DNA of 24,880 nucleotides, taken from positions 1 through 24,880 of the IMG/VR virus record IMGVR_UViG_3300005253_000541, one strand, 5' to 3'. Made by a program: the position numbers and the translations under genes. Origin of the DNA: a virus. The notes below the pieces were generated by a model. That model saw only the letters and a list, made by a program, of their open reading frames with translations, had not been told where the DNA came from and made no database searches. Below are positions 12,837 to 24,880 of this stretch, in pieces (within the stretch, counting starts at the first letter, position 1; each line of letters begins with the position of its first letter).

Positions 12837-12865
12837 AGTATAGCACGAATGTACTATTCTGTCAA
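12837..12865 (-). promoter_or_regulatory. Leftward sigma70-type promoter P1 before lipoprotein and terminase genes
   Basis: On the minus strand TTGACA (12865-12860) and TATACT (12842-12837) are separated by 17 bases, close to the ideal consensus. The start would be near 12830, about 30 bases before the lipoprotein ATG. The -35 lies in the last codons of the diphosphohydrolase gene, as the -35 of P2 lies in the end of the portal gene. Both upstream proteins end in DLTE. Confidence 0.85.
12840..12857. promoter_or_regulatory. Operator-like palindrome within promoter P1
   Basis: ATAGCACGAATGTACTAT forms an inverted repeat (arms TAGCAC-/-GTACTA with one purine/pyrimidine change) in the -35/-10 spacer, in the same position as the palindrome in P2. 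Shared consensus: TAGYACRNNTGTRCTA. Confidence 0.7.
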
Positions 12866-13234
12866 ATCCACGTCGTAGATGTCCAAGTCCAGCAGCTCCT
12901 TTGGAAGTTTACCCGCCAGGACTTCCTCCTCCATGTGTATTATGGCCATGGCGTTATAAAGAATAGCCGCAAGATGGTCTTCTACAGGGTCGCCCTCTCT
13001 CCAGGTCATCATATGCCTGAACATAGAAGAATAGAACCGGGAAACATGCTGCCCCTTCTCCCAATTACGCTCTCCATATTTCTCAGCACCTTTAGTCATG
13101 AGGTCGGCCAGCCTCTTGAGACCGTGAGGAGAGATTAGATCAAATCTAGGTTTACCCTCTTCAGTATCCCGGACAGAACCTGTCTCAAACTCCTCCCGTG
13201 CCCCACTATCCCGCAAGCCAAATCTATTCAGCAT
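12854..13234 (-). CDS. dATP/dGTP diphosphohydrolase-like protein (DUF5664 / MazZ-type)
   Basis: The product has 126 residues. The core 'PRFDLISPHGLKRLADLMTKGAEKYGERNW', then 'SRFYSSMFRHMMTWREGDPVEDHLAAILYNAMAIIHMEEE', is the pattern of the all-alpha DUF5664 / dATP-dGTP diphosphohydrolase group. These MazG-like enzymes remove pyrophosphate from purine deoxynucleotides. In phages with 2-aminoadenine DNA a member of this group (MazZ) supplies dGMP to PurZ. No PurZ gene is in this window, and the family is also common in ordinary phages, so nucleotide-pool control is the safer reading. ATG 13234 lies nine bases after GGGAG. An ATG at 13243 directly abuts it and is less likely. Confidence 0.8.
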   Translation of the reverse strand: MLNRFGLRDSGAREEFETGSVRDTEEGKPRFDLISPHGLKRLADLMTKGAEKYGERNWEKGQHVSRFYSSMFRHMMTWREGDPVEDHLAAILYNAMAIIHMEEEVLAGKLPKELLDLDIYDVDLTE

Positions 13235-13700
13235 CGTCGTCATCTCCCAGTAATCCCTCTAAAAAGTCGGTAAAACTATCTGCCTCCTCTTCAATCTCTT
13301 CCTGGGACTGGGCCAGTGCCACACCTGCTGCTTGTAGTGCTCCTGTTACAGAAGCTGCCAGATCGTCTGGTTTAGTGAAATCCATGCCATCTGCCATAGC
13401 CTGACTAAACCCATTTCCGGCCAGAGCGTGCTCATTGATGAACAACCCTAAAATGAATGTAGAAGCCCGCACGGCCATTTCTCTGTCAAATAAACTATAC
13501 AGTTGACCATCCTCCCGTAAATGGGCCAATTGAACGCTATAGGCATAAATATTAGGCTGGATGTAGATATTGAGATGAACATCACCTTCATCCTCATTAT
13601 ACAGAACATAGGCTGCCACACTGCCTGATATACCTACACTCACAAGCGTGTGTGTTTCCATACTTATCTCTCTACCGTGCCTCAATAACACTGTTGCCAC
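13224..13700 (-). CDS. Hypothetical protein
   Basis: The 158-residue protein is not recognised. From about residue 14 it reads as strands ('ETHTLVSVGISGSVAAYVLYNEDEGDVHLNIYIQP'), then helices, and ends in a very acidic tail (EEIEEEADSF...LLGDDDDAE). GTG 13700 has AAGGAG seven bases upstream and is preferred. ATG 13661 is an alternative. It overlaps both neighbours by short stretches. Located between the replication protein and the nucleotide enzyme, it may serve DNA metabolism, but nothing in the sequence shows this. Confidence 0.65.
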   Translation of the reverse strand: MATVLLRHGREISMETHTLVSVGISGSVAAYVLYNEDEGDVHLNIYIQPNIYAYSVQLAHLREDGQLYSLFDREMAVRASTFILGLFINEHALAGNGFSQAMADGMDFTKPDDLAASVTGALQAAGVALAQSQEEIEEEADSFTDFLEGLLGDDDDAE

Positions 13701-13992
13701 AATATGTCTCCTTTACATATCGAATACAATCATCTAACTCCTCACCCAGCACTATTACCAAATGCAGGTGAGGTCTCTTGCCGATTAAAACATAAAACCT
13801 GGGTTGGTTCTGGTATAACACCCATACGGCATAAGCATCCATCTGGATATACACCCCTGCACCAGGAGTATGAGCTGTGTAGAGCTTATTGTGCTCCACA
13901 GCATAGTAATGTACTCTTACCCCTGGAAATTCCCTCAGCCCCATAAACAGAGGCAGAAGGGGCCAATATTCTCTTATTCGAAGTTTTACCAC
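13672..13992 (-). CDS. Hypothetical protein
   Basis: The 106-residue protein is not recognised. It is rich in tyrosine and short strands ('VRVHYYAVEHNKLYTAHTPGAGVYIQMDAYAVWVLYQ', 'FYVLIGKRPHLHLVIVLGEELDDCIRYVKE'). GTG 13992 lies four bases after GAGGAGG, inside the last codons of the PrimPol-helicase gene, so the two are translationally coupled. Confidence 0.62.
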   Translation of the reverse strand: MVKLRIREYWPLLPLFMGLREFPGVRVHYYAVEHNKLYTAHTPGAGVYIQMDAYAVWVLYQNQPRFYVLIGKRPHLHLVIVLGEELDDCIRYVKETYCGNSVIEAR

Positions 13993-16900
13993 ACGTCCTC
14001 CTCTACTTGAACAATATTAAGAGCAGTGCCCAGGTCACACTTCTCCTGGGCCATGAAGTCCAGAACCTCATCCTGAGTTTCTCTGGACAATGACTTAAAG
14101 GCCTCACGAGAGGCTTTGTCCACCAAGTCCTCATAAGCAACAATTTGATCCAACTGAAATTCATCTTCTAATCTCCAGGAGCAGAAAATCTCTGCCTCTT
14201 TCAGATTAGCTATATAGTAAGTTTTATCCCTACCACCATCGCCAGTACGCTTTGTTCTCTGGGCAAGCCCTATTCTCCCCAACAACACCTTTGAATAAGC
14301 TACAGCCAATTTCTCAGGAGTATCATTGACCAGCTCCCCATTGCGCTTCCGATTAGGAATAGCCGCATACTTCTGTTCCGCCCGAAATATCACCCTATCG
14401 TAATCTACACTAACCTTCTCCAATTCATCAAGAAATTTAGTAGCGCGTTCTGTCAAGGTAATCGGAGGCAAAGTCTCGTAAAGATCAGTGAACAGGTAAC
14501 GGGTAAGCCCCACCACAGCAACCAGAGTAATGTCATTGGAGAGTGTGATAAGGGCTTTAGTTCTATCGGCCATCCAGTGCTCGGCCTCTAGTAATGCTGT
14601 ATCCTGCTGAAGATATGCTGTAAGGGGATAGATGGAGCGTTCGAACTGGGTTACGATGTCATAAACTTCTTCATCTCTAGCTACCTCTGGAAGAGGTATA
14701 TTACCCATGAGATATTTCTCTATTTTAGCGTGCATGAGACCTTGAGCTATCTGTAGTGGGGTATAGTCCTCAAAAGCAGGTCTCTCCTGGTCTATAGGAG
14801 GTGTGTCTCTCCAGGTTTTAGCTACCTGAGCCAGCATCTTTTTACGAGCTGCACGAGTACCCTGTACGGCCCGTTGAAGTCTATCTTCGATACCCTCGGC
14901 CAACTGCATAGTAACTTCTCTGCCATCGGCCTTGAGTAGGTTCATATAGTAGGTACGTGCAGATCGTTCCTGCTGGTTGACATCGCCTATAGCTACTGAA
15001 GCTACTGCGTCCCTCGCCTTTGCATTGTCATTCCTAGTACGCCTCTTCATGGAGACTAGCTCAGCTTCTCGATCCGCCCTGGCTTCGGCTTCTGTTCTAA
15101 CCTCTTCCGCCGACCCCTTATCTAACTCCTCACCCCATCGGTAGTAGCAGTAGACTAGTCCCTGCCTACGGTAGCGGTTAAGTAGCTGTAGGTTATTACT
15201 AGGAGGTAGGAAGGTACTTATCTGGACTACCACATCAGCCTCTACATCTGTAATAGAGACCCCACTACCCATAACTGAGTTATAGCAAACTAGATCATAC
15301 TTGGCTGCCCCGACATTCACATCATCCATAAACATTTTCACTTCGGGCTGACTACCTGTATCACCCGTAATAACTATAGATAGCTTACCCTTGCTGCCCA
15401 GAAGACCTAGTTTCTTCATGGTCTCTCGGACTTCCATAGCCTTAGCTGCTGTATCACAGACTACTACTACCTTCTTATCATGTATCAAGGCAGACATGAT
15501 CTGGTAAAAAGCATCCTCTTCTTTAGCCAGAAACCTAACTGGGGCTTTAGGGGTTATCCGGGTATTCCGCACCACCTGAAGTGTCCTATCAGAGTTGTAC
15601 AAAGCAACTAGATCATAGGTCACTCTGGACATAGTAGCATCTACGAAATACACATGTCCTGCTCGTTCAATAGCTGCGCGAAGACAGGCCCAACCCTTGC
15701 GGGTCTGCATAGGGCTGACATGACTGGTGTGCATCCCTCCTCCGCCTCTGGCGAAATCTCGAATAAGCTGGTCACTCTCCTCCACATAAACCAAACCATA
15801 CTGCTCCATGTTGTTATCCCAGACTTTCTGGGCGAACGTCTGAAGAGTAGAGACCAAAATAGGAGCTTTTATCAGCTCCTCTCGGTCAAGAATTAATCCA
15901 CTTTCCAGGTCACGGTACAGCACAGCAGGTAACTTATGGATGTTAACTAACTCCCTGTGGAGACTAGTAGCTAGTTTAATACTCGGCACTAAAATAATGG
16001 TCTTGGGTTGCCCCAGTCTATTCCAAATAGTTTTCAATGCGTAGGTCTTTCCAGAACCTGTCTGAGACATCAGAAGCAGGAGATCAGGAAACTCATCAAG
16101 GGTCTTCACCCAATCGCTGATATACGTCTCATCTATCTGGTCGGTAAGCATAAAATCCGTGATTTCATAACCTGTGGTGGAAAGCCATCCAGCCTCTCTA
16201 GCTAAGGTACGTAGAGTAGCAACCGTAGCTACGGGTATAATATTTCCATTCTCGTCTACCTCACCTATAGGACGTTGCCTATGATTGCCCCACTTGTCCC
16301 GGAAAGCATTGATGCCATCCCGGCCATCCGAGAACACCACTTTCGGATGCTCTATGATATAGTTCATGATGTTCTTATCACCGTCAGCCGCATGGTGAGC
16401 AGACATCCACATCCTAATCCAGTCATCGTATTCTTTGTGGTCATCCCAATCTTTCAGGACATAGGACAACATTTCTTTGGTAAAAATTACCTTCTTGTTC
16501 TGGGAGGTTCTGCCGTACTTCTCTAAATTCTTACGTCCCTGTTCTGTTTGCCATTCGATCTCAGTTTTAGAGAGACCAGCTTGAAACCTTTTGGGCTGGG
16601 CAGTGAGCCGCTTATACAGTTCCAGGTTCAATATCCCCGGTTTGCTGTAGCTGCCGAAAGGCAAGGTGACATAAGCAGCTACATGTCCATCCGCCACACC
16701 TTTTTTAGTGGCACTTTTGCCTGTATACTGGTTTACACCACCTAGAGAAACTACTTGCCCACCCTCACCGCGTATATCAACGCCTGCAAATGGTGGATTG
16801 ATGTTATTGAGTAATGGAAGTTCATCTGGGGTCAGATAGTACATATGCACACCATTGCCTGGAGTGCCTAACACAAATGGCGTGGGGCAGATTTCCTGGA

Positions 16901-17249
16901 ACATATAGTAGATCGTAGCGGGGTCTAACCCTCCAGCTTCCATAGCCGAAGGGTCGAGGTCGATTACAATAAGATTATTCGACATCGCACCTGTTACTAC
17001 ACACCAGCCCTCTACGTCAGCTCGGCTCTGGTACTCCATAGCCATCTCTTCAGAATGGAGGTACTTGGTGTTCTTTTTTGTCCAGAAGTCCCAGTGGGGT
17101 ATTTTAGCCGTTGTTCTTTTAGGGAGAGCATAAAAACCTACTCTCCGAAGTAGGCGGAAATTCTCTAAATGGACATTCGGGGAAAAACAAGGGCGAGTGA
17201 AGTTAGATACTGGTTCAGGATACTGTGGGTAATTGCTGTCCAGCGCCAT
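13986..17249 (-). CDS. PrimPol-helicase replication protein
   Basis: This 1087-residue protein joins a primase-polymerase to a helicase. N-terminal AEP/PrimPol motifs: D97-L-D99 in IVIDLDP, H135 in GNGVHMYY, D158 in GVDIRGEGG. About 260-325 resembles a PriCT-type linker. The helicase has Walker A SQTGSGKT (395-402), a Walker B-like VYVEESD (about 488-493), a motif V-like 'GSGVSITDVEADVVVQ' and a motif VI-like 'QLLNRYRRQG', like the origin-binding/CyRepA1 group of superfamily 2. The last about 350 residues are helical and unrecognised. It would prime and unwind at the phage origin. The ATG has GGAG nine bases before it and overlaps the upstream gene by 35 bases. No DNA polymerase is in the window. 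Confidence 0.88.
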   Translation of the reverse strand: MALDSNYPQYPEPVSNFTRPCFSPNVHLENFRLLRRVGFYALPKRTTAKIPHWDFWTKKNTKYLHSEEMAMEYQSRADVEGWCVVTGAMSNNLIVIDLDPSAMEAGGLDPATIYYMFQEICPTPFVLGTPGNGVHMYYLTPDELPLLNNINPPFAGVDIRGEGGQVVSLGGVNQYTGKSATKKGVADGHVAAYVTLPFGSYSKPGILNLELYKRLTAQPKRFQAGLSKTEIEWQTEQGRKNLEKYGRTSQNKKVIFTKEMLSYVLKDWDDHKEYDDWIRMWMSAHHAADGDKNIMNYIIEHPKVVFSDGRDGINAFRDKWGNHRQRPIGEVDENGNIIPVATVATLRTLAREAGWLSTTGYEITDFMLTDQIDETYISDWVKTLDEFPDLLLLMSQTGSGKTYALKTIWNRLGQPKTIILVPSIKLATSLHRELVNIHKLPAVLYRDLESGLILDREELIKAPILVSTLQTFAQKVWDNNMEQYGLVYVEESDQLIRDFARGGGGMHTSHVSPMQTRKGWACLRAAIERAGHVYFVDATMSRVTYDLVALYNSDRTLQVVRNTRITPKAPVRFLAKEEDAFYQIMSALIHDKKVVVVCDTAAKAMEVRETMKKLGLLGSKGKLSIVITGDTGSQPEVKMFMDDVNVGAAKYDLVCYNSVMGSGVSITDVEADVVVQISTFLPPSNNLQLLNRYRRQGLVYCYYRWGEELDKGSAEEVRTEAEARADREAELVSMKRRTRNDNAKARDAVASVAIGDVNQQERSARTYYMNLLKADGREVTMQLAEGIEDRLQRAVQGTRAARKKMLAQVAKTWRDTPPIDQERPAFEDYTPLQIAQGLMHAKIEKYLMGNIPLPEVARDEEVYDIVTQFERSIYPLTAYLQQDTALLEAEHWMADRTKALITLSNDITLVAVVGLTRYLFTDLYETLPPITLTERATKFLDELEKVSVDYDRVIFRAEQKYAAIPNRKRNGELVNDTPEKLAVAYSKVLLGRIGLAQRTKRTGDGGRDKTYYIANLKEAEIFCSWRLEDEFQLDQIVAYEDLVDKASREAFKSLSRETQDEVLDFMAQEKCDLGTALNIVQVEEDVW

Positions 17250-17806: not shown

Positions 17807-17835
17807 TTGACAGGCAAACAATGACATGGTATTGT
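17807..17835 (+). promoter_or_regulatory. Rightward sigma70-type promoter of the Toprim operon
   Basis: TTGACA (17807-17812) and TATTGT (17830-17835) have a 17-base spacer. The start would be near 17842, about 30 bases before the Toprim ATG. It lacks the TAGYAC palindrome found in P1 and P2. An ACAAT...ATTGT inverted repeat spans the -10 and a CAAACAGTTTG palindrome (17845-17855) lies at the start point, either of which could be another operator. Confidence 0.78.
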
Positions 17836-17870
17836 CTAATCTATCAAACAGTTTGTATGGAGGTAATCTA

Positions 17871-19088
17871 ATGGATTACAGCAGGATTAAAGAAGCAGCA
17901 AAACTATACGGGGGATCAGTAACAGACTGGTTAGCACTTGCACCAGCCAATGACCCTTTCTATGTGGGCACTCCAAAAGATATAATAAACGCTCAGTGGT
18001 TCAGGAAACTATGGGACACCGCAGGGTACGTATCTGGTATCCACCTGAGACGCGCACACTACTGGGCAGTATCACAGTCGAACCTGCTTCTCCCCAATGG
18101 TGAACGGTACGAAAATACCGACAAATGCTGGAAGTTCCTCACCCAGGCTTCGAAAATGTCCCGCTACCTGGGACTGGTGTGTATTGAGGATGTGGTTGAC
18201 CGCAAGAACCCAGAGGCCCGGGCGAACACCTACTACGCCTATGGAGAGGATGCAGAAGTTACACTAACCATCCCAGAACTGCAATCTCCGGCTATTAACA
18301 TCTGGAATTTAACCAATGGAGATGCCCAACCTTATCACCTCGAAATCTGGTGTGAAAAATCAACGATGAACGATATACTGCAACCATTGTGCGCCACTTA
18401 TGGGGCTAATCTGGTGACATTCAATGGTGAGGTATCTATCACCAGTGTCTATGACCTGATTAAACGTGGAGAAGCGGCTGATGGCAAACCTATCCGAATT
18501 CTCTACATCAGCGATTTCGATCCCGCAGGCATCTCCATGCCCGTAGCCATGAGCCGCAAAATAGAGTTCATGCTCCAGAAATATGAACACCAGAACTGGG
18601 ATGTCAAGGTGCAGTCGATCATGCTAACAGCCGAACAAGTGAGGAAATACCAGCTCCCTCGAACACCCATCAAAAAATCCGAGAAACGAGCAGGCAAATT
18701 CGAAGAAGCATTCGGTACAGGCGCAGTGGAACTGGATGCTCTGGAAGCTCTTCATCCTGGAGAACTAGAAGCACTCGTAACCCTCCACCTTCATAAATAT
18801 TACAGTGTAGAGGCCATGTATGCAGTACAGACCACCACACGAAATATTAAAGCAGAAGTGCAGATAGAGATCGACAAGATAACTGCAAAATATGCTACAG
18901 AAATTGCAGCTATGCAGAATTATCTGGATGATCTGGAAGCCCTGAAATTCGATATAGTCAAACGCAAAGTGTATAGGAGTGATTACCCCGCAGTAGCTGA
19001 GGACGAGGAGGATTTCTTATTCAGCAGTGACCGTAGTTACCCCACACAAATAGCAGCATACAAATCATTCAAGAATGGAGATAACTAA
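17871..19088 (+). CDS. Toprim-domain protein related to Topo VI A subunit / Spo11
   Basis: The product has 405 residues. The middle carries a Toprim-type layout: E162 in LEIWCEKSTMND, D215 and D217 in ILYISDFDPAG, then 'AVELDALEALHPGEL' (286-300). These are the acidic metal-binding positions of Topo VI A-like enzymes. Earlier, 'HLRRAHYWAVSQ' (58-69) resembles the R..YY segment that carries the catalytic tyrosine in Spo11/Topo VI A, with Y64 as candidate. The C-terminus (about 310-380) is a helical, coiled-coil-like region. No B subunit (GHKL ATPase) is in the window. Such lone A-like proteins are described in some mobile elements as Mini-A. The role (DNA nicking, decatenation or recombination) is open. 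ATG 17871 has GGAGG seven bases before it. A longer frame from 17826 would start inside the promoter. Confidence 0.75.
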   Translation: MDYSRIKEAAKLYGGSVTDWLALAPANDPFYVGTPKDIINAQWFRKLWDTAGYVSGIHLRRAHYWAVSQSNLLLPNGERYENTDKCWKFLTQASKMSRYLGLVCIEDVVDRKNPEARANTYYAYGEDAEVTLTIPELQSPAINIWNLTNGDAQPYHLEIWCEKSTMNDILQPLCATYGANLVTFNGEVSITSVYDLIKRGEAADGKPIRILYISDFDPAGISMPVAMSRKIEFMLQKYEHQNWDVKVQSIMLTAEQVRKYQLPRTPIKKSEKRAGKFEEAFGTGAVELDALEALHPGELEALVTLHLHKYYSVEAMYAVQTTTRNIKAEVQIEIDKITAKYATEIAAMQNYLDDLEALKFDIVKRKVYRSDYPAVAEDEEDFLFSSDRSYPTQIAAYKSFKNGDN

Positions 19089-19133
19089 ATGAAATCACCA
19101 CTGAGATACCCCAAGCTATATGGGAGCAGATAA
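19089..19133 (+). pseudogene. Remnant of the start of a D12-class DNA adenine methylase
   Basis: The frame begins with ATG directly after the Toprim stop (TAAATG), has GGAG upstream, encodes MKSPLRYPKLYGSR and stops. D12-class N6-adenine methylases commonly begin (M).SPLRYPGGKS, so the first eight residues match that start and then diverge. This looks like the stump of a methylase gene cut by a deletion. The match is short, so the identity is tentative. Confidence 0.45.
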
Positions 19134-19353
19134 TCCTGGTACAGTGGTAGAGAATATGATACCATTATGTCGAGACTGTAACAGCAGCAAGCAAGCAAAG
19201 CTACCCGAAGACTGGGCAACACCTGAACTGATCGAACAAGTAGAGGAGTATTTTGACCATGTTAACGAAACTTATGATAGGGATGCTGGTTATCAGTATC
19301 ATACTCATTATATTCGGTGCGTGGACATTAGCGCAACCACCAGCATACAGTGA
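19120..19353 (+). pseudogene. Truncated HNH endonuclease (C-terminal part only)
   Basis: The frame encodes 'GADNPGTVVENMIPLCRDCNSSKQAKLPEDW', the second half of an HNH motif: the N of the 'ENMIPLC' segment, the CxxC zinc pair (C..C in LCRDC) and the NSSK stretch. The first half, with the DH..P histidine pair, is missing. An in-frame stop lies at 19102-19104 and only about 15 bases separate it from the homology. No ribosome binding site precedes the ATG at 19120. It overlaps the next gene by 95 bases. It is best read as a decayed homing-type nuclease. Confidence 0.7.
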
Positions 19354-22728: not shown

Positions 22729-22754
22729 AAGAATAGTTGAGGAGGCTGAATAAG

Positions 22755-22910
22755 ATGCAGTACACAATAGAAGTTAGCGGGCTGCACGCGATAATCACTG
22801 TCGAAGGTGAAGACGAGGAGGACGCATTATACGCATGTCAGGAAGGCTGGGGAGAGAGGCAAATCATATGGGACGACGCAGAATATGATGTGAAGGAGGA
22901 CAAGGATTAA
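22755..22910 (+). CDS. Small acidic protein, 51 residues, last gene of the operon
   Basis: This short frame has a good ribosome binding site (GGAGG, nine bases before the ATG). It encodes MQYTIEVSGLHAIITVEGED, then EEDALYACQEGWGERQIIWDD, and ends VKEDKD. The layout of two strands, a helix and a strand, with many acidic residues, resembles small phage proteins of unknown function. The rightward terminator follows 17 bases after its stop. Confidence 0.6.
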   Translation: MQYTIEVSGLHAIITVEGEDEEDALYACQEGWGERQIIWDDAEYDVKEDKD

Positions 22911-22927
22911 GGAAGAATTGAGACAAC

Positions 22928-22948
22928 AGCCCCGAAAGGGGCTTTCTT
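22928..22948 (+). terminator. Rho-independent terminator of the rightward operon
   Basis: AGCCCC and GGGGCT pair over a GAAA tetraloop, followed by TTTCTT. This is a compact and strong terminator directly after the last small gene. Confidence 0.9.
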
Positions 22949-23048
22949 CATTGTGCAAAACGCCGGAAGCACTAGCTGGCGTGTCTCATACTTCGTCTAT
23001 TAATATCTCCAACTCATCTTCGGCAAATCCTTAGCAAGTGCCTTTTAG

Positions 23049-23098
23049 AATGCAATAACCGCAAATACAATATCTTATCTAAAAGCGGTTATTGCATT
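23049..23098. repeat. Perfect 14-bp inverted repeat with a 22-base loop
   Basis: AATGCAATAACCGC (23049-23062) is exactly repeated inverted as GCGGTTATTGCATT (23085-23098). Neither strand has a run of U after the stem, so it does not look like a terminator. It could be a binding site for a dimeric protein, a cruciform or a replication-initiation hairpin. Confidence 0.88.
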
Positions 23099-23184
23099 GT
23101 TACAGAGAAAATAACGAAAAAGAGTTTAGTAAAAAGGGGCTGAATAGTATGATCTCAGGGCCTCAGGAAGACAACTGTTCTAGG

Positions 23185-23196
23185 GGGTTCGAACCC
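23185..23196. repeat. 12-bp perfect palindrome resembling a tRNA T-arm
   Basis: GGGTTCGAACCC is its own reverse complement. It contains the TTCGAAC of a tRNA T-loop, but surrounding bases do not form a tRNA. It could be a protein site, or part of an attachment site if the phage integrates at a tRNA gene. Confidence 0.6.
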
Positions 23197-23205
23197 ATGC
23201 TCTAC

Positions 23206-23224
23206 TTAACTTAACATAAGTTAA
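23206..23224. repeat. 8-bp hairpin
   Basis: TTAACTTA and TAAGTTAA are perfect inverted copies separated by ACA. It is AT-rich and lies next to the AT-only stretch. Confidence 0.7.
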
Positions 23225-23343
23225 ATCATAAGGAAACAATGCCTAAACTATAGCTTAACCTCACTCATATTATTACATATATAATTATATTATTATTGTA
23301 TAATAAATAGATCATGCTACACACACACCATACAGCACACACA

Positions 23344-23361
23344 GTAGCACATGTGTACTAC
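23344..23361. promoter_or_regulatory. Third copy of the operator-like palindrome
   Basis: GTAGCACATGTGTACTAC matches the minus-strand P2 sequence GTAGCACATTTGTGCTAC at 16 of 18 positions, and the next two bases (AA) also agree. No TTGACA lies at -35 distance, so this copy has a site but no clear promoter. Confidence 0.5.
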
Positions 23362-23460
23362 AAACACAGCATAGATGTAGCAATTATTACTAACGATAAG
23401 GACGCTTATCAAGAGGTAATATATAGTAATGTAGTATGTAAGGACGTATTGTTCATTATA

Positions 23461-23478
23461 ATAGAGCACCTGTTCTAT
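23461..23478. promoter_or_regulatory. Possible fourth, more divergent palindrome of the same type
   Basis: ATAGAGCACCTGTTCTAT fits the looser pattern TAGNRCANNTGYNCTA. Its arms pair except for one purine/pyrimidine change. It is less certain than the other three. Confidence 0.3.
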
Positions 23479-23833
23479 GGTGTACAGTACGCATCTCTGT
23501 TCTAAGCAACGCATATACACTATCATGTAGGTATACACATGGAACACTCTGTACTTCGCTGTAATGAACACAGAGCCACACAGAGCATATATCTATATAA
23601 CTATCTCATGGTCATTGTGTAGGCTATTCGAGGGCGTATCTGTAAGAAAATAAAAGGTGAATGGTGGAAGTGGCCTAGGGACAAGGCATAATCGGATGTT
23701 TGATCTAAGGGCTTAGTGTGTAGGGGCATATAGAGCGCGAAGTTAGACTGGACATATCATTATCTGTTCTTTTACATAAAACAATAGGATAAGCCATACA
23801 GCCTACCCTATCATCCCTATCTCTACTCACTAT

Positions 23834-23888
23834 CTTTTAGTTAGTTACTTACCCTCTACCACCTACTTACTTTTAGTTAGTTACTTAC
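23834..23888. repeat. Two direct copies of a 19-bp sequence, 36 bp apart
   Basis: CTTTTAGTTAGTTACTTAC occurs at 23834-23852 and again at 23870-23888. Each copy itself contains TTAGTTAGTTA. The second copy overlaps the stop of the leftward gene. They could be binding sites of a replication or regulatory protein. Confidence 0.8.
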
Positions 23889-24481: not shown

Positions 24482-24688
24482 TTATTCTCCCTTTAGTTTT
24501 GTTACTGCCAATTCTATAGATCGTCCGATAAACTTGTTTAGGTTCGCTTTTCGTGCGGCCCTTTTTTCACCCCTTGACATATCGGATTGTATAATTTCCT
24601 CAATTCTAGCCTGGAAATGCTTGCTAATTTTCTTTCGTTTGTTCTCATGCCGTTGATTTTTAATATCATCCTTGCACGTTTCTACCAT
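24482..24688 (-). CDS. Small basic helical protein
   Basis: The 68-residue protein is highly charged, mostly lysine, arginine and glutamate (NKRKKISKHFQARIEEIIQ, SRGEKRAARKANLNKF) and likely helical throughout. No family is recognised. It could bind nucleic acid. The start overlaps the end of the upstream leftward gene by seven bases. The upstream purines GGCGGAT could act as the binding site. Confidence 0.58.
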   Translation of the reverse strand: MVETCKDDIKNQRHENKRKKISKHFQARIEEIIQSDMSRGEKRAARKANLNKFIGRSIELAVTKLKGE

Positions 24689-24846
24689 ATCATATAGTAT
24701 CCGCCGGCCTTGTTATCATATTCAGTATTACCACTATCTATGGCGTTACCCTCAATTTGTATATGTTCAATGTGTTGAATGATTTCGATTTCTGTTTGGC
24801 GTTCCCTCAATATCCGTAGTGTCTCTTCACCTAGACTATTTTCATC
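24682..24846 (-). CDS. Partial hypothetical protein, 5' end missing
   Basis: A leftward frame without stops enters from the right edge and ends with TAG at 24684-24682. The visible part is DENSLGEETLRILRERQTEI, then EIIQHIEHIQIEGNAIDSGN, and ends GGYYMIW. No start is present, because the true sequence is replaced by adapter from 24847. Not recognised. Confidence 0.5.
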   Translation of the reverse strand, partial: DENSLGEETLRILRERQTEIEIIQHIEHIQIEGNAIDSGNTEYDNKAGGYYMIW

Positions 24847-24880
24847 CTGTCTCTTATACACATCTCCGAGCCCACGAGAC
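24847..24880. other. Nextera/Tn5 sequencing adapter (not phage DNA)
   Basis: The 34 bases start with the Tn5 mosaic end CTGTCTCTTATACACATCT and continue with CCGAGCCCACGAGAC, the Nextera read-2 adapter. They are untrimmed library sequence at the contig end. Confidence 0.97.

Follow-up and report, generated by a model that had tools for sequence, protein, structure and literature searches.

Can the DNA-cleaving subunit of a type VI topoisomerase serve a tailed phage without its ATPase partner? The question is raised by a gene carried on an IMG/VR record of 24,880 bases, which was analysed in its entirety (hereafter the window) and is classed as linear and possibly a fragment. The minus strand of the window carries terminase, portal and head genes, and the element that hosts the gene is a tailed phage. 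A first-pass annotation, made from the letters alone, had read the product as a lone Topo VI A/Spo11-like Toprim protein, a description with which the profile, fold and residue tests reported here agree. We consider it likely that the product, an enlarged or long-form Mini-A, is a stand-alone Topo VI A/Spo11-type DNA transesterase of this phage, for which both cleavage and biological role are inferred.

The gene and its surroundings

The features of the locus are collected in Table 1. An in-frame alternative start at 17826, which would lengthen the protein by 15 codons, is less likely than the ATG. It had also been claimed that the gene is the first behind a strong promoter; the upstream site exists and is the sole one on the plus strand near the start to match at 10 of 12 positions, but the scan as a whole was not clearly above chance (23 sites against 16.6 +/- 4.6 in shuffles). 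From its position and the promoter sequence, the Mini-A gene may be expressed early. The divergent neighbour matches PF09250 (E 9e-9), PF00270 (E 1.1e-9) and the replication family phrog_4913 (E 1.3e-23).

Table 1. Features of the long-form Mini-A locus, in window positions
Feature	Positions	Strand	Remarks
Long-form Mini-A gene	17871..19088	+	405 aa; winged helix with catalytic Tyr and Toprim domain, N- and C-terminal extensions
Ribosome-binding site GGAGG	17859..17863	+	7 nt before ATG 17871; read directly
Putative sigma-70-like promoter TTGACA-17-TATTGT, extended TG	17807..17835	+	consensus match only
PrimPol-helicase, divergent neighbour	13986..17249	-	1087 aa; first large gene in the leftward unit; replication module
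N-terminal NDPFY-type segment, residues 17-43 (VTDWLALAPANDPFYVGTPKDIINAQW)	17919..17999	+	long-form clade only; absent from short Mini-A
R60 codon	18048..18050	+	4 residues before the catalytic Tyr; invariant in all three alignments, including one with haloarchaeal forms
Y64 codon, predicted catalytic tyrosine	18060..18062	+	invariant in all three alignments
E162 codon, Toprim glutamate (CEKS)	18354..18356	+	invariant, 25 relatives
D215-F-D217 codons, Toprim DxD (SDFDPAG)	18513..18521	+	D215 invariant; D217 replaced by N in HCIV-1 only
E287 codon (VELDAL)	18729..18731	+	candidate fourth acid and clasp partner; invariant, 25 relatives
C-terminal extension, residues 313-398	18807..19064	+	helices and conserved LF(S/D)S.R.Y..Q..YK motif

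Several other features of the window were recorded. Directly behind the Mini-A gene, 19120-19353 encodes an HNH endonuclease (PF01844, E 0.0022) of which the C-terminal half is present, with an in-frame stop upstream; it is probably what is left of a homing-type nuclease gene. A dATP/dGTP diphosphohydrolase domain at 12854-13243 (PF18909, E 9.7e-21) is a possible hint of nucleotide-pool or base-modification genes elsewhere in the phage. The stretch from 22730 to 23880 has few genes and is AT-richer; an imperfect inverted repeat of 21 nt (23042-23105) and a 24-nt unit repeated in tandem (23829-23888) are found there. The last 34 bases of the window (24847-24880, CTGTCTCTTATACACATCTCCGAGCCCACGAGAC) are an untrimmed Nextera mosaic end and read-2 adapter; the open end of a minus-strand ORF (24682-24879) thereby gains the artefact peptide SRGLGDVYKRQ.

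Assignment to the Mini-A family

Mini-A is the name given to truncated homologues of Top6A that are encoded by archaeal viruses and by phages (Takahashi et al. 2020, as cited in PMC7614492 and PMC8185306). They are illustrated by phage NP1 in PMC7614492, their function has been called unknown in reviews (PMC8084294), and none of the archaeal ones had been characterised as of PMC8185306. Compared with PHROGs, the window protein gave one strong match, to phrog_6247, 'DNA topoisomerase' (E 7.6e-30), which is also matched by all 25 aligned relatives (best E 7e-138; 18-50% identity to the window protein). This viral family of 303 positions differs from the window protein in that it covers residues 81-339 only, leaving out both extensions. 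A tblastn search of 50,697 phage records matched 44, with identity below 60% and query coverage below 80% throughout, including haloarchaeal HCIV-1 and phages of Salmonella, Bacteroides, Brevundimonas and Roseobacter; the record annotations of relatives read DNA topoisomerase. A 300-aa protein of Pseudomonas phage NP1 (about 41160-42068, minus strand) was matched by the profile of the close branch (E 4e-21) and by that of the whole family (2e-94), and, as the 50 kb of NP1 that were searched hold no other match, we infer that this ORF is the Mini-A published for that phage. A short C-terminal motif, reportedly described by Takahashi and colleagues, is said to distinguish Topo VI, Topo VIII and Mini-A from one another.

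Other routes to the family gave little. The window protein was unlisted under the Pfam TOP6A-Spo11_Toprim model even at E 1, and two distant family members matched that model weakly; a PDB sequence search returned no match with the window protein alone and coiled-coil noise only with the close alignment, and DNA-pattern searches for the Topo VI A motif TDGDPYG returned 0 matches or unrelated viral proteins only. Nevertheless, because the branch profile reaches NP1, the protein falls in phrog_6247, the catalytic residues are present and the predicted fold is Topo VI A-like, the window protein is, as judged from homology, residues and the absence of a B subunit, a Mini-A, that is, a cleavage subunit without ATPase. 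It shares with the published Mini-A the winged helix with catalytic tyrosine and the Toprim domain in one chain, the lack of a B subunit and carriage by a mobile element; it departs from them in size (405 aa against about 300 aa), in the NDPFY-type segment, in the helical C-terminal extension and in forming a separate clade.

Active-site residues and predicted fold

The acidic triad and the tyrosine within RRAHYWAVSQ proposed in the first-pass annotation were placed at the exact positions, and among 25 relatives R60, Y64, D110, E162, K163, G186, S189, D215, G220, E287 and A290 are invariant, with D217 as the one exception in the triad. In short Mini-A the sequence at the Y64 position is T-[LVIT]-R-x-x-[YFH]-Y. 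The exceptional DFN of HCIV-1 ORF35 resembles the DxN of plant SPO11-2 (PMC11302465). The best PDB match in the sequence-profile comparison was Topo VI A 1d3y, at a non-significant E of 0.78, and its alignment sets Y64 on the second tyrosine of TLREAYY, in the catalytic region, SDFDPAG on TDGDPYG and LPRNPIKETD on LPTHPLKEQD. In Methanosarcina mazei Top6A the catalytic tyrosine is Y106, the clasp residue R102 lies 4 residues earlier, and the acids are E202, E254, D256 and E342 (PMC13040014). By analogy, R60, Y64, E162, D215, D217 and E287 appear as obvious counterparts of the M. mazei residues, E287 being likely equivalent to E342.

The structure-prediction check pointed the same way. An AlphaFold2 model of the window protein, built from a multiple alignment, reached a mean pLDDT of 82.3 and a pTM of 0.77, and all six PDB matches with E below 1e-3 were Topo VI A chains (1d3y from Methanocaldococcus, 9o8p and 9o0g from Methanosarcina, and 9o7o; best E 1e-6), followed by the Spo11 core complex 8uru at E 1e-3; intact Topo VI was also among the best solved matches. 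A second model, of a member from Ktedonobacteraceae, had Topo VI A chains as its first 8 matches (best E 2e-6). A structure search of BFVD turned up nothing below E 1e-3. For the window model, TM-scores against Topo VI A were 0.34-0.50 and rmsd was near 10 A, which leaves the position of its two domains relative to each other uncertain. Since the tyrosine of Top6 pairs with the acids of the other subunit and, until cleavage, lies about 10 A from them (PMC13040014), the distance from Y64 to the acids within a monomer is not decisive.

Similarly to Topo VI A, the window protein has an arginine four residues before the tyrosine and the Toprim glutamate and DxD; it is unlike it in the 11-15% identity of the structural matches, in lacking a B gene and in scoring below the Pfam cut-off. 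With Spo11 it shares the catalytic plan and the tyrosine transesterase fold, and the way Spo11 cuts, without strand passage driven by ATP, offers the closest functional parallel, although the Spo11 core complex is eukaryotic and relies on Rec102/104-type partners, for which the window protein has no counterpart. A DUF2399/JetD-like Toprim protein of a Wadjet-type system was considered on the strength of a weak DUF2399 match (E 0.0036) and was rejected, as that match scored 17.5 bits against a curated cut-off of 23.4, PADLOC gave no match and the window has no SMC-type partner (PF13476 absent); with the catalytic tyrosine conserved and the match to phrog_6247 far stronger, we give this identity next to no credence.

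Search for an ATPase subunit

The GHKL domain of the B subunit (HATPase_c_3) was found in none of 18 virus or phage records (eight complete phages and ten virus records, the window being one of the ten) and in none of eight complete plasmids carrying relatives, while the control was positive in 14 of 14 genomes; the survey thus spanned 26 Mini-A records, of which complete phages and plasmids make up 16. In 21 records or genomes the Topo VI B transducer never scored over the cut-off. Absence from the window alone proves little, given that the record is linear and possibly incomplete, but the earlier remark that no ATPase B subunit is visible extends to the complete relatives. With the GHKL domain missing from both protein and record, neither the A2B2 composition of Topo VI nor the joined or paired A and B of Topo VIII is seen.

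It could be imagined that a B subunit is borrowed from the host, giving a full Topo VI-like tetramer, and the haloarchaeal hosts of plasmid-borne forms (see below) do have Topo VI, as the family control in Haloferax volcanii illustrates. The phage and prophage members, however, reside in bacteria, and Topo VI A (PF21180) was found in 0 of 400 Chloroflexota genomes (E up to 1e-4) and 0 of 396 Bacteroidota genomes (E up to 1e-5), for which reason bacterial hosts are unlikely to supply B; two genomes with a bacterial long form likewise had no Topo VI B transducer over the cut-off. Borrowing from the host is accordingly judged highly improbable.

A long-form clade in bacteria and their phages

The branch of Mini-A that includes the window protein is an enlarged one, set apart, at the level of sequence, from the published description of about 300 aa by its size and its two extensions. 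Long forms carry the N-terminal pattern D-[LMF]-x5-NDPFY-x-G ... A-x-W and a helical C-terminal end with LF(D/S)S-x-R-x-Y-x2-Q-x3-YK, both missing from the ~300-aa Mini-A, and members with intact ends measure 405-540 aa. A maximum-likelihood tree places the 17 bacterial long forms on one side of a branch with support 100/100. Their sources are virus contigs and the genomes of at least four phyla (Chloroflexota, Pseudomonadota, Bacteroidota and Bacillota), and no cultured phage among the 50,697 records encodes a full-length long form. In the Chloroflexota, 12 of 400 genomes had matches, and one virus contig and a stretch of a Chloroflexota genome encode the same protein. Several of the Chloroflexota copies (among L042, L044, L045, L052 and L053) are truncated or interrupted by stops and occur beside intact ones, as expected of mobile elements. 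In our sample the family is restricted to mobile elements or their remnants.

Extension to haloarchaeal vesicle plasmids

A search of 72,556 plasmids gave seven records in which the match spans 80% or more of the window protein. The top ones are haloarchaeal, annotated as hypothetical (best E 3e-37), and about 27-30% identical to that protein. The carriers include pR1SE, whose relative is WP_176580084.1, pR1SE2, pHTUR05 and pHALXA03. These haloarchaeal forms keep the catalytic residues and have both extensions, with RDPMYKG in place of NDPFYVG and a C-terminal D-P-[IL]-[YF]-D-S-x-R-x-Y. In a tree that includes them, haloarchaeal and bacterial long forms stand together against the short forms with support 100/100, and the branch that parts the bacterial from the archaeal long forms has lower support (96/89). 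As far as sequence can tell, the long-form Mini-A thus reaches haloarchaeal vesicle plasmids, a new finding for proteins hitherto hypothetical there.

Plasmids of the pR1SE type (apHPVs) spread among haloarchaea in membrane vesicles; no conserved replication module has been reported for them, possible origins have been placed before ORF6 or just after ORF25, and topoisomerases are not mentioned in the work describing them (0 occurrences; PMC10818511). In 6 of 7 sampled plasmids (L113, L114, L116, L117, L120 and L121) the Mini-A gene lies at most one gene from a conserved gene of about 800 aa, 43-53% identical among distant plasmids, which from gene order and conservation we take to be ORF25, the predicted packaging ATPase. 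A MCM/ATPase gene is also found near Mini-A on haloarchaeal plasmids. These plasmids resemble the phage in holding an unannotated full-length relative, here beside the putative packaging-ATPase gene, and are unlike it in being archaeal and vesicle-spread and not tailed phages. A broader reading would make the long form a Spo11-like protein, self-sufficient and common to bacterial phages and archaeal vesicle plasmids, that acts as initiator or processor of the DNA of mobile elements; it would cut beside origin and packaging genes and lead to recombination-dependent replication or to release of unit genomes for packaging; we regard this version as improbable in its full extent.

Gene neighbourhoods

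Replication or recombination genes lie near Mini-A in most loci. A DNA polymerase or helicase is nearby in several phages, a primase in one locus (L015) and a helicase in another (L033), the NP1 gene is accompanied by a RecA-like ATPase and a ligase, and integrases neighbour several chromosomal or plasmid copies. No partner gene common to the window and the other loci was found, and among the other loci common neighbours were confined to near kin, the haloarchaeal plasmid cluster excepted; as no partner is shared beyond close kin, it is only the general replication neighbourhood that points to a pathway.

On a 142-kb virus contig (L016, 9986-14227) Mini-A has DNA polymerase III alpha on one side and, directly after it, an SbcD-SbcC pair; of 19 Mini-A records, 5 contain an SbcC/SMC-like AAA_23 gene. 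SbcD-SbcC is the bacterial Mre11-Rad50, and in eukaryotes Mre11-Rad50 strips Spo11 from DNA ends. A Spo11/Mre11-Rad50-like link was considered on these grounds and, most records being without such a gene, is kept as a lead only.

The company of replication genes in many loci also bears on whether the target is the phage's own DNA. A nuclease directed against the host chromosome, competing elements or host defence would suit a gene that heads a rightward unit of small genes of unknown function, the usual place of takeover genes, and related Toprim dimers do act as nucleases in Wadjet and Gabija (PMC13040014). PADLOC gave no match to the window protein, and the catalytic tyrosine is invariant in Mini-A. 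We know of no defence Toprim nuclease that uses a catalytic tyrosine. Together with the replication neighbourhood, this leaves such a host-directed nuclease with a small share of the probability.

Proposed mechanism

According to the preferred reading, a stand-alone transesterase of the phage, the protein would act as an ATP-independent homodimer in which Y64 of one subunit pairs with E162, D215 and D217 of the other on bent duplex DNA, cleavage leaving 5'-phosphotyrosyl ends. A clasp between R60 and E287, like that of R102 and E342 in Top6, would restrain cleavage, and the N- and C-terminal extensions may replace part of the work of Topo VI B by holding the winged helix and aiding dimerisation. 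Made early alongside the replication genes, the protein would cut or nick the DNA of its own element, resulting in relief of topology or in the start of recombination-dependent replication.

How far the reaction would proceed towards religation separates this transesterase from an ATP-independent topoisomerase, in which reversible cleavage and religation would relax or decatenate element DNA with no net breaks. Topo VIII of Microscilla marina relaxes DNA without ATP, whereas another Topo VIII cleaves only (PMC7614492). With the conserved R60/E287 pair, cleavage would stay reversible (PMC13040014), and the annotation of relatives as DNA topoisomerase would also suit such an enzyme; however, there is no ATPase gate for driving or ordering strand passage. 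A true topoisomerase is somewhat doubtful, while being the alternative to which we give the most weight.

Implications

Topo VI A and Spo11 are both controlled by partners, so that a lone, enlarged A protein with intact residues amounts to a natural test of what the scaffold can do alone. The link to pR1SE offers a genetic system in Halorubrum lacusprofundi, where removal of the gene can be set against plasmid replication, copy number and vesicle transfer, and it provides a candidate DNA-processing protein for plasmids in which no conserved replication module has been identified (PMC10818511). If the reading as an initiator or processor were true, the long-form Mini-A would represent a new, ATPase-free use of the Spo11/Topo VI A scaffold.
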